A stretch of DNA of 64,000 bases, taken from the NCBI GenBank assembly GCA_031276865.1, contig JAISMF010000093.1, positions 1-64,000 on the forward strand. Reading direction: 5' to 3'. The notes under the pieces were generated by a model that saw only the letters and a program-made list of their open reading frames with translations, was not told the origin of the DNA and searched no databases. The position numbers and the translations under genes were made by a program. This DNA comes from Deltaproteobacteria bacterium (GTDB taxonomy: Bacteria > Desulfobacterota > Desulfarculia > Adiutricales > Adiutricaceae). How positions within the stretch are numbered: the stretch's first letter is position 1; each line of letters opens with the position of its first letter. Below, in pieces: positions 60,879 to 64,000 of the stretch.

Positions 60879-61637
60879 ATGCGGCCCCGCGTCAACCATC
60901 GTTTCCGCCCCCGGCGAAGCTCGGCGGCCACCGCCCTCCTGGCGGCGCTCTTCTTAGTCTTCGCTCCGGCCTGCGCCCCCCAGTACCGCTACAAGCCCAT
61001 ACCCGTGAAGGCCTTGGAGGATTACCCGGGAAAGGCCTCCGCCGACGGGGTGACGGTGGGAGCCGAGGCCTTCTACGATTCCGCCCGCCTGGCCGAGCTC
61101 TTCGGCTTCGATCTGAAAAAGGCCGGAGTGGTGCCGGTGCAGATCAAGATCCGCAACTCCGGAACCAAGACCGTGACGGTGGAGCCGGGCTCCACCCTCA
61201 CCGACGCGAAAGGGCTCACCTGGGAGGTGCTGCCCTCTTCGGTCGTATTCCAGCGCATAGACGAGTACACCTCCGGCGGCCTGTCCATGGGCCAAGGCGC
61301 TAAAAGGACCCTGCTCTGGGGTCTGGCCGGCGCCGTGGTGGGCGCCGCCGTGGGCGTCGCCACGGGCACCAGCGTGGGCGAGGGCGCCGGCAAGGGGGCC
61401 GCGGTGGGTGGCGCCATGGGCGCCTCCACGGCCATCCTCGGCATGGGTCCGGAGGAGGACACCTCCGGAGACGTGGTGCGGGACTTCTCGTCCCGGTCCA
61501 TCGATCACGCCTCCATCGCCCCCGGGGAGGAGGCCAGCGGATTTTTGTACTTTCCGGCGGAAAGCGCGGCCCCCGAAAACCTGCGGCTGAACCTGGCCGG
61601 AGACGGTCCGGCCCGGACGCTGCAGATTGCCTTCTGA
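60879..61637 (+). CDS. Exported glycine-zipper protein in the Mla-like operon
   Basis: The 252-residue protein has a basic N-terminus and a hydrophobic signal (ALLAALFLVFAPAC) with a Cys that may be a lipobox of poor fit. The middle has a beta-like domain (VVPVQIKIRNSGTKTVTVEPG). A glycine-zipper follows (GLAGAVVGAAVGVATG...GAAVGGAMGAST). It overlaps the permease gene, so a role in outer-membrane lipid transport is inferred from context. Confidence 0.8.
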   Translation: MRPRVNHRFRPRRSSAATALLAALFLVFAPACAPQYRYKPIPVKALEDYPGKASADGVTVGAEAFYDSARLAELFGFDLKKAGVVPVQIKIRNSGTKTVTVEPGSTLTDAKGLTWEVLPSSVVFQRIDEYTSGGLSMGQGAKRTLLWGLAGAVVGAAVGVATGTSVGEGAGKGAAVGGAMGASTAILGMGPEEDTSGDVVRDFSSRSIDHASIAPGEEASGFLYFPAESAAPENLRLNLAGDGPARTLQIAF

Positions 61638-62481
61638 CCTAGGACGGGGCCCGGAGGCCGGCAAACTTAAAAACTCCCCGGTCTTCTCCAACATCTGGGG
61701 AAGAACGGGGCGTTTTTTTATCAAGCTCGTCATCCGCCGCCTGAACCAGACGGCCTGGATCGGGCGGGTTTTAATCCTGGCCTTTCGGGATCTAAGGGGA
61801 AACGCCAACCGCCGGAGGCTCGTCTGGTCGCAGATCCTCCTCCAGATAGCCAGAACCTTTCAAACCGCGATCTACCCGGTGATCCTTCTGGGCTTCCTCA
61901 CCGGCGTGCTCTGGACCGTCATCTGGTACGCCCTTTTACGCAACATCGGCGGGGTGGAGTCCTTCGTTAGCGTCCTTGTGACCGTGCAGTTCCAGGAGGT
62001 TTCCCCCTTCCTCACCTTCATGGTGGCCCTGGCCGCCTACATGGGGCCCATGATCCTGGAGATCATCCTCATGAAGACCAACGGCCAGTTCGACAATTTG
62101 ATCATGATGGGCATCCCCCCCGCCCACGTGGTGGCCTGGCCTAGGGTGATCGGGCCGGTTTTGGCCTTTCCCCTGCTTCTCGTGGTCACCAACGTCTGCG
62201 TTTTAACCGGCGCCCTCATCGGCTCCTGGTTCGCCGTGCGGGCGCCGGTCACGGACTTCGTCTACGAGATTTATTTGAAGATCAAGGTCTTCAAGCTTTT
62301 CAAGCTCTTGCTGCAGGGGGTCCTTATGGCCTTCACCATGGGCTTCTTCTCCCTCTACAGCGCCTGGACCTACGACTCCAGGGATCTCTCTTTGGCGCCG
62401 CGGGCTTTACGACGGGGCATCATAGAGGCCGCGGTCGTCTCCGCCCTGGTGGGCGTCCTGGTGACGGTTTTCTATGCCTGA
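61627..62481 (+). CDS. mlaE: MlaE/YrbE-family lipid ABC transporter permease
   Basis: Inner-membrane permease of the phospholipid/MCE transporter family. About 284 residues with helices from residue 80. The family segments AYMGPMILEIILMKTNGQFDNLIMMGI and VIGPVLAFPLLLVV match the MlaE conserved core. The TTG start overlaps the previous gene and has no good ribosome site; the true start is uncertain. It overlaps the next gene by 8 bases. Confidence 0.88.
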   Translation: MPSDLGRGPEAGKLKNSPVFSNIWGRTGRFFIKLVIRRLNQTAWIGRVLILAFRDLRGNANRRRLVWSQILLQIARTFQTAIYPVILLGFLTGVLWTVIWYALLRNIGGVESFVSVLVTVQFQEVSPFLTFMVALAAYMGPMILEIILMKTNGQFDNLIMMGIPPAHVVAWPRVIGPVLAFPLLLVVTNVCVLTGALIGSWFAVRAPVTDFVYEIYLKIKVFKLFKLLLQGVLMAFTMGFFSLYSAWTYDSRDLSLAPRALRRGIIEAAVVSALVGVLVTVFYA

Positions 62482-63190
62482 AACGCCTTCGGAAAAGGAA
62501 AGCCCGCCGGACTTTCCCCGAAACAAGCCCCGGCCGCCCGTGCTCGCGCTGGAAAACATCAAGGTCCCGGACGAGGGAGGCCTGGTCTACGGCCCTTTGA
62601 ACCTCTCATTGGATCCGGGGGAAAAGGTCCTCGTCCGCACGGACAACACCAGCGTGGTCGCGGCCCTCATCCGGGTGATCCTCGCGACCCGCGGCCCCCT
62701 CGAGGGCCGGGTCTTTTTCCAGAATAAAAGGATGGAGACGCGCCTGGACACCCTGGAGCGCGCCGGACTGTACAAAAAAATAGGCCTGGTCTGCGATTTC
62801 CTGGGCCTCATCGCGCGCCTCACCGTCCATGACAACATCCTGGCCTACTATCTCTACCACAGCCCGGAAAACCCCAGGGAGCTGGAGCGGCGGACCCGGG
62901 ATCTTCTCCACGGCTTGGGTTTTTCCCAATCCCTCATGGACGCCTCCTTCGCCTCGCTGCACAAGGTGCAGAAGAACCTGGCCTCGCTCGCGCTGACCCT
63001 CGCGAAGGAGCCGCCCCTCATGCTTTTGGAACGCCCGAAATACCGCCTGGGGCGTTTCTTCCCCCGCTCCTGGGAGAGGATCCTCGAGTGCTCCGCCGCC
63101 AGCGGCGGCGCCATCCTGGCTCTGGCCCTGCAGTCGGAAGACTACCAGGATCTGGGTTTCGACAAGACGATCGATCTTTTAGGCGGCTGA
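62474..63190 (+). CDS. ABC ATPase-like protein lacking Walker motifs (MlaF position)
   Basis: The 238-residue protein occupies the MlaF slot and follows the ABC fold: LALENIKVP, NLSLDPGEKVLV, PLEGRVFFQNKRM, then LTVHDNILAYYL. The P-loop is replaced by VRTDNTSVVAALIR, with no GxxGxGK(S/T). The signature region reads LHKVQKNLASLALTLAKEP, and the Walker B segment is LMLLERP without the Asp-Glu pair. It therefore should not hydrolyse ATP in the usual way. The frame is intact and coding-like, so it is unlikely to be a pseudogene. Confidence 0.85.
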   Translation: MPETPSEKESPPDFPRNKPRPPVLALENIKVPDEGGLVYGPLNLSLDPGEKVLVRTDNTSVVAALIRVILATRGPLEGRVFFQNKRMETRLDTLERAGLYKKIGLVCDFLGLIARLTVHDNILAYYLYHSPENPRELERRTRDLLHGLGFSQSLMDASFASLHKVQKNLASLALTLAKEPPLMLLERPKYRLGRFFPRSWERILECSAASGGAILALALQSEDYQDLGFDKTIDLLGG

Positions 63191-63236: not shown

Positions 63237-64000
63237 ATGAAAGGAGACGAGGATATCGGAGCGACCGGAAAAGATCGCCTAGGGGATTTCGGGGAAAACG
63301 AAGCCGCCAAAGGGGGCGGATTTCCGGATGACGATCCTTTCGGAGCGGAGGCGCCGAAAAGACCAGAGACGAAGTCCCGCGCCTCCTCTCCGGAACGGAC
63401 GGAAAGCGCCTCCGGCCCGGGGGCGGGCGCCGAGGGCCGCGGGGGCGAACCCGTCCCGGAGGCCTATTCCGCCCTGGAGCGCTTCACCGGCATCATCCTC
63501 TTCGTGGTCTTCACCATCCTGATTTTAAGCGCCATCATCATCGGGGCGGGCCGCGACTTTTTGCGCAGCTACGACAGCTTCTTCGTGATCTTCCAAGAGG
63601 GCTACGGCCTCCTCCCCGGAGTCAAGGTGCGCTTCAAGGGCATCGACATAGGCTCGGTCACCCGGGTGGATCTCATGGACAACAACAAGATCCGCATGGA
63701 GCTTAGAGTGCTTTCCGAGTACAGCTCCCGGGTGAAGGGCGACTCCCTGGCCACCATCAAAAGCCCCACCATCATCGGTTCCGAATACATAGAGATCCAG
63801 ACGGGCTCCGCGGAGAGCCTCCCCATACCCCCGGGAGGACAGATTCCGGCGACCGATCCCAAAACGGTGGATCAGGTGTTGAACGCCTTGCAGTGGGAGG
63901 ACAAATTGAACCAGTTCAACCAGATCCTGGCCGACTTAAACTCCCTCACCTTCCAGCTGCAGGATAAAAACGGACCCATCATAGGAACCTTCGCCAATCT
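63237..64000 (+). CDS. mlaD: MCE/MlaD-family substrate-binding protein (partial, runs off window)
   Basis: It is absent from the ORF track because no stop lies in the window. The ATG at 63237 has GGGAGG 6 bases upstream. An acidic, disordered cytosolic tail of about 80 residues precedes one membrane helix (GIILFVVFTILILSAIIIG). The MCE domain follows: GYGLLPGVKVRFKGIDIGSV and SPTIIGSEYIEI. It is probably longer than the 254 residues seen. It binds lipids in the periplasm as part of an Mla-like transporter. Confidence 0.9.
   Translation, partial: MKGDEDIGATGKDRLGDFGENEAAKGGGFPDDDPFGAEAPKRPETKSRASSPERTESASGPGAGAEGRGGEPVPEAYSALERFTGIILFVVFTILILSAIIIGAGRDFLRSYDSFFVIFQEGYGLLPGVKVRFKGIDIGSVTRVDLMDNNKIRMELRVLSEYSSRVKGDSLATIKSPTIIGSEYIEIQTGSAESLPIPPGGQIPATDPKTVDQVLNALQWEDKLNQFNQILADLNSLTFQLQDKNGPIIGTFAN

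Follow-up and report, generated by a model that had tools for sequence, protein, structure and literature searches.

A conserved pseudo-ATPase occupies the MlaF position of an MCE operon in Desulfobacterota

The window, by which we mean the whole 64,000-nucleotide stretch of DNA that was analysed, belongs to contig C14 of a 4.03 Mb assembly (111 contigs, 85% complete) and carries toward its 3′ end a five-gene operon that runs on past the window and encodes, in order, a glycine-zipper protein, an MlaE permease, an ABC-type protein that we titled "pseudo-MlaF," an MCE protein and a TPR lipoprotein. The pseudo-MlaF start overlaps the MlaE stop by 8 bp and the MCE gene comes next, at 63237, placing an MlaE-family permease and an MCE-domain protein beside pseudo-MlaF. 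The features of this locus are as follows:

60879..61637, forward strand: first operon gene, lipoprotein-like protein with a glycine-zipper segment (weak Pfam Gly-zipper_YMGG match, below cut-off)
61627..62481, forward strand: MlaE-family permease of the pseudo-ATPase clade (pMlaE), TTG start (Pfam MlaE, 76.6 bits, above cut-off)
62050..62154, forward strand: predicted coupling-helix segment of pMlaE, approximately residues 142-176, conservation above the average of the protein
62474..63190, forward strand: pseudo-MlaF, 238 aa, ABC nucleotide-binding-domain (NBD) fold without catalytic motifs (Pfam, alignment, AF2, Foldseek)
62639..62662, forward strand: Walker A position, residues 56-63, TDNTSVVA versus GRSGGGKS in intact MlaF
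62795..62797, forward strand: Q-loop Gln position, Asp108 instead (alignment to intact MlaF)
62957..62971, forward strand: ABC signature position (LSGGE/Q in intact proteins), LHKVQ, residues 162-166
63029..63037, forward strand: Walker B Asp-Glu-Pro position, ERP (Glu-Arg-Pro), residues 186-188, ERP being conserved in the family
63237..64000 in the window, forward strand: MCE/MlaD protein of 375 aa, a single MCE domain followed by a long helical C-terminal region (gene end at contig position 64364, past the window)

The partners of pseudo-MlaF are recognizable members of their families, with the permease being a distant one. TIGR00056 scores 55.8 bits on the window pMlaE, below its cut-off of 212, and pMlaE shares 20-21% identity with canonical MlaE; its coupling helix corresponds to the TM2-TM3 loop, by the E. 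coli MlaE structure (PMC7790496). The MCE protein matches Pfam MlaD at 59.9 bits (59.2 bits on the full protein), and its MCE domain is preceded by a hydrophobic N-terminal segment that, judging from its sequence, probably serves as an inner-membrane anchor. The TPR lipoprotein gene lies 3′ of the MCE gene, its TPR domain having been identified on the same-genus orthologue.

The original prediction held that this open reading frame encodes a pseudo-ATPase in the MlaF position whose P-loop, LSGG signature and Walker B Asp-Glu are all replaced while its reading frame and operon overlap are intact, and this was borne out by alignment to our reference for reading the motifs, an intact MlaF encoded on contig C53 of the window's genome. 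Beyond the substitutions listed above, the H-loop His position is occupied by Leu, such that Walker A, signature, Walker B Asp-Glu, Q-loop Gln and H-loop His are all replaced, and the Pfam ABC_tran match (residues 42-185) reaches 28.1 bits, just above its cut-off of 25. No P-loop occurs in any frame on either strand of the pseudo-MlaF stretch, and therefore no frameshift could restore one.

Pseudo-MlaF is nevertheless clearly an ABC NBD, and its fold is predicted to be intact. The structure prediction and alignment to MlaF that had been proposed as a check gave an AF2 model with a pLDDT of 95.2 and a pTM of 0.88 (input of 68 aligned family members), whose Foldseek matches were ABC NBDs throughout, with LolD and FtsE slightly above MlaF and the E. 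coli MlaF structures (6xgz, 6xbd, 6xgy) superposing at 2.4-3.0 Å over approximately 200 residues. The claimed MlaF-type alignment thus stands as regards the fold, whereas the name does not follow from the sequence alone: a profile search of PDB sequences ranked several NBD types above MlaF, and the best NCBIfam matches were CcmA and FtsE (approximately 35 bits). In a tree the pseudo-NBDs grouped weakly with MlaF (support 85/79), and the label "MlaF" as used here is a statement on position and partners, i.e., place in the operon, MlaE and MCE neighbors and this weak grouping.

Relatives were gathered by aligning the MCE protein against an 84,980-species genome collection, so that no selection was made on the NBD, which rules out a chance pick of odd orthologues. 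Among the best 80 MCE loci, 72 possessed a detectable NBD gene near MlaE/MCE (2 of them, L105 and L141, cut by contig ends), and Walker A was found in 0/72. Counting motifs in the family alignment (window protein plus 72 rows) revealed that the Walker Lys was kept in 0/71 and the Gly before it in 0/71, the second signature Gly in 1/73, the Q-loop Gln in 3/71 and the H-loop His in 6/72, while the catalytic Glu was present in 0/73, its position being Arg in 54/73 and followed by the Pro of ERP in 67/73. ISGGN-like motif matches in some orthologues proved to lie in a C-terminal strand, away from the signature position. A search of 60 relatives that used the pseudo-NBD itself as query matched 33 genomes, nearly all without motifs; exceptions such as L040 and L046 were ordinary NBDs caught by similarity.

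This gene set is broadly distributed, with hosts in Adiutricales, Desulfobacterales (including the isolate Desulfosarcina alkanivorans), Syntrophales and others. Judging from these loci, the closest named relatives are Deltaproteobacteria MAGs and Candidatus Adiutrix (order Adiutricales, class Desulfarculia), and the window's genome presumably has its place near them. MCE gene orthologues were found in 35/37 genomes of the window's family and are rare in another family of the same class (one carrier being G053). Most of the 17 neighborhoods examined show the same gene order (glycine-zipper, MlaE, pseudo-NBD, MCE, TPR lipoprotein), and a glycine-zipper orthologue sits directly 5′ of MlaE in most related operons examined. 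In a permease tree, one branch with 100/100 support separated 39 pseudo-system MlaE from 12 canonical MlaE, although the tree is unrooted and a single origin is not proven by it. The pseudo-ATPase is conserved in at least 70 other bacteria of the phylum, which marks it as a design that has been retained rather than a gene that has broken down, and the orthologues with normal Walker motifs that might have undone the prediction did not appear in the family set.

Across 51 close pairs, the pseudo-NBD returned dN/dS values of 0.09-0.43, mostly 0.12-0.25 (Nei-Gojobori type count), which were not far above those of its MlaE and MCE neighbors, showing that the gene is under purifying selection; the expectation that orthologues would share the same losses under such selection was met by these data. 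Conservation is unevenly spread over the protein, as the mean information per column of 1.75 bits is exceeded at the Q-loop/coupling groove (2.21), the post-signature helix (2.33) and around ERP (2.37), while the values across the nucleotide site are 1.76 (Walker A), 1.54 (signature), 1.48 (D-loop) and 1.55 (H-loop). On the permease side, the coupling-helix segment carries 2.56 bits versus a protein average of 2.22 (67 pMlaE rows). These patterns suggest that the permease-docking face has been kept and the nucleotide site has drifted, as expected of a structural subunit.

Four genomes (G064, G066, G067, G070) were found in which the pseudo-system MlaE is the only MlaE. All are metagenome assemblies of unstated completeness, with the absence of MlaF being strongest for G064 (CP070660), a single 1.68 Mb chromosome record with some bases masked. 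There, all ABC_tran matches were listed and the ABC-type ones, other than two long ORFs of 593-610 aa, were read, with no MlaF among them; two of the G064 ABC proteins are LolD by best NCBIfam match, and the others, besides the pseudo-NBD, we take from their sequences to be LptB, FtsE, several Liv-type, BtuD/FecE-like and ABC-2 type proteins. An MlaF-query search detected no MlaF in G066, G067 and G070, where the best matches are presumably GlnQ-, MacB- and PotA-like; the same search did find canonical MlaF beside most canonical MlaE in other genomes.

We consider the best explanation, and a somewhat probable one, to be that pseudo-MlaF is a structural pseudo-ATPase in an ATP-independent MCE lipid conduit. 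Seated in the place of MlaF with its ABC NBD fold kept, pseudo-MlaF would use its Q-loop groove to dock on the coupling helix that the partner MlaE presents on the cytoplasmic side, helping to keep the MlaE dimer and the MCE ring together, with stoichiometry modeled on E. coli MlaFEDB. The loss of the motifs for ATP argues against ATP binding or hydrolysis in the ABC manner and therefore against an ATP-driven pump, such that ATP-driven transport by the pseudo-MlaF/MlaE/MCE complex appears unlikely. The complex most likely forms instead a passive or otherwise driven conduit from the inner membrane to the periplasm or outer membrane, presumably for lipids, at the far side of which the TPR lipoprotein and the long C-terminus of the MCE protein would be located. 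Among the options originally raised, a transporter that would work without ATP hydrolysis survives best.

Precedents for such behavior exist within the MCE field. MlaD passes lipid to MlaC in vitro without ATP, and ATP hydrolysis has been described as preventing spontaneous transfer (review PMC10212509). PqiABC is an MCE system with no known ATPase, in which PqiA, if it is a transporter, could be passive, driven by proton motive force or served by an unidentified ATPase (PMC10897342). Conversely, in A. baumannii an ATPase-dead Walker-Lys mutant of MlaF is dominant negative (PMC6365058), indicating that canonical Mla needs hydrolysis and that the pseudo system must therefore differ. An evenly balanced proposal in our view is the broader one, that a phylum-wide MlaE/MCE branch abandoned ATP hydrolysis in the distant past while its NBD persisted as a structural pseudo-enzyme, forming an ABC-architecture lipid bridge that would be a third MCE type beside ATP-driven Mla/Mce and ATPase-free Pqi/Let.

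Of the competing explanations, the one that fares best, though we regard it as unlikely, is that a catalytic MlaF acts in trans, with a homodimer of an orphan MlaF or of another Mla system's MlaF energizing pMlaE under some condition and pseudo-MlaF being a displaced placeholder or inhibitor. The search for a second MlaF with intact Walker motifs that had been suggested for this genome returned two canonical Mla systems, both complete and with an intact MlaF (contigs C53 and C46), and one orphan MlaF at G000:C101:19108-19908 (L048:5109-5909), which is flanked by a Lys/Pro-rich gene and a gene for a phosphopantetheinyl transferase and has no detected MlaE neighbor. With these possible energizers of pMlaE at hand, a trans-acting ATPase that displaces the pseudo-subunit is conceivable in the window genome, and in mycobacteria one ATPase, MceG, is apparently common to the Mce transporters (PMC10517005). 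The orphan, likewise lacking a detected MlaE neighbor, is found in 26/37 genomes of the family (the window's plus L149-L173) with Walker A (of the unusual form GE[SN]S[SC]GK[ST]), Walker B and signature intact, but in 26/26 of these its H-loop His is Ser, Thr or Ala. Also against a supply in trans, a strong orphan match is absent from a 91% complete genome (G018) in which the pseudo-operon MCE gene is present, no clear orphan orthologue was established outside the order, and the four genomes described above have no detected MlaF.

A less probable alternative still is that the complex is energized otherwise, e.g., by proton motive force acting via the diverged MlaE or through nucleotide bound at a non-canonical site. 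This draws on the strong divergence of pMlaE from canonical MlaE noted above and on the conserved ERP at Walker B, which may have acquired a new role.

Each composite site of an ABC transporter is built from the Walker A/B of one subunit and the signature of the other, and transporters with one degenerate site, such as TAP, are well known. With intact MlaF genes in the window genome, pseudo-MlaF could be imagined to pair along these lines with a catalytic MlaF from elsewhere in a true heterodimer, as the original prediction had offered. We consider it very improbable, as the known cases keep one complete composite site, whereas pseudo-MlaF has lost Walker A/B and signature alike and neither site of a mixed dimer would therefore be complete; the four genomes without detected MlaF count against it as well.

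At least as doubtful, and to us marginally more so, is the reading that pseudo-MlaF regulates or poisons the canonical Mla systems of the cell. The dominant-negative Walker-dead MlaF of A. baumannii offers a precedent (PMC6365058), but in nearly all loci pseudo-MlaF is accompanied by an MCE protein and a permease of its own clade, and it also occurs where that permease is the sole MlaE, including the four genomes that have no canonical Mla to regulate. Finally, gene decay and errors of sequencing or assembly can be virtually dismissed: while the pseudo-NBD is the fastest-evolving core gene of the operon (44% identity to its same-genus orthologue versus 69% for MlaE and 74% for MCE), its frames are open in approximately 70 genomes, its dN/dS is far below 1, the same class of losses occurs everywhere and no frame holds a P-loop.

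Comparing the operon to known systems, the closest is MlaFED(B) (E. coli, A. baumannii, Veillonella MlaEFD), which likewise has MlaE, an NBD-fold subunit and MCE as adjacent overlapping genes, of the same subunit families as far as tested. In contrast to MlaFED(B), the system described here has an NBD subunit free of ATPase motifs, no MlaB/STAS gene in the operon, a separate permease clade and two extra genes, for the glycine-zipper protein and the TPR lipoprotein. PqiABC and LetAB (YebST) are also MCE lipid-transport systems with no known ATPase, but their membrane proteins, PqiA/LetA, are unrelated to MlaE and they lack an NBD-fold subunit, where the operon here pairs MlaE with a dead NBD. 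Mycobacterial Mce systems similarly combine MlaE-like permeases (YrbE) with MCE proteins and have one ATPase common to several transporters, though this MceG is catalytic and the only NBD, with no dead NBD encoded alongside YrbE/Mce. In the heterodimeric transporters TAP, BmrCD and MsRv1273c/72c, one NBD has likewise lost catalytic residues, but one of the ATP sites stays complete, whereas pseudo-MlaF has no motif left and its operon supplies no partner NBD.

No description of a conserved or natural inactive MlaF was found in the literature searched (preprints not covered). A phylogenomic study of Mla, which identified MlaF by combining synteny with an HMM of the active family, acknowledged that the annotation of MlaF is uncertain (PMC10665443), and pseudo operons could have been counted in that survey as MlaDE without MlaF. 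Whether MCE systems move lipid forward or backward, and what ATP does there, is a standing dispute, for which an Mla-type complex whose dead ATPase is natural and conserved, and which is the sole MlaE system in some genomes, offers a convenient means of testing transport without ATP. An NBD turned purely structural across a phylum would, in addition, be rare among ABC transporters.

Several loci depart from the common arrangement. In Ca. Adiutrix intracellularis (L097) and at L099 the MCE gene lacks MlaE and pseudo-MlaF upstream, and no remnant of either was found upstream of the Ca. Adiutrix intracellularis MCE gene, whose operon is apparently rearranged; the operon appears to have been split in the Adiutrix lineage, with a 3 kb gap between MlaE/pseudo-MlaF and the MCE gene at L057. 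A canonical-type MlaE with no MlaF-like ORF detected directly beside it in the fetched stretch was seen at L189 (G063) and at L183 and L185 (G062). In a Desulfobaccales MAG (L132), a rearranged operon has pseudo-NBD and MlaE on the strand opposite to the MCE gene. Within the window genome, the canonical MlaD on C53 (L050:3675-5060, 461 aa) has a C-terminal part that, judged by eye, resembles an outer-membrane beta-barrel, comparable to the long Veillonella MlaD.
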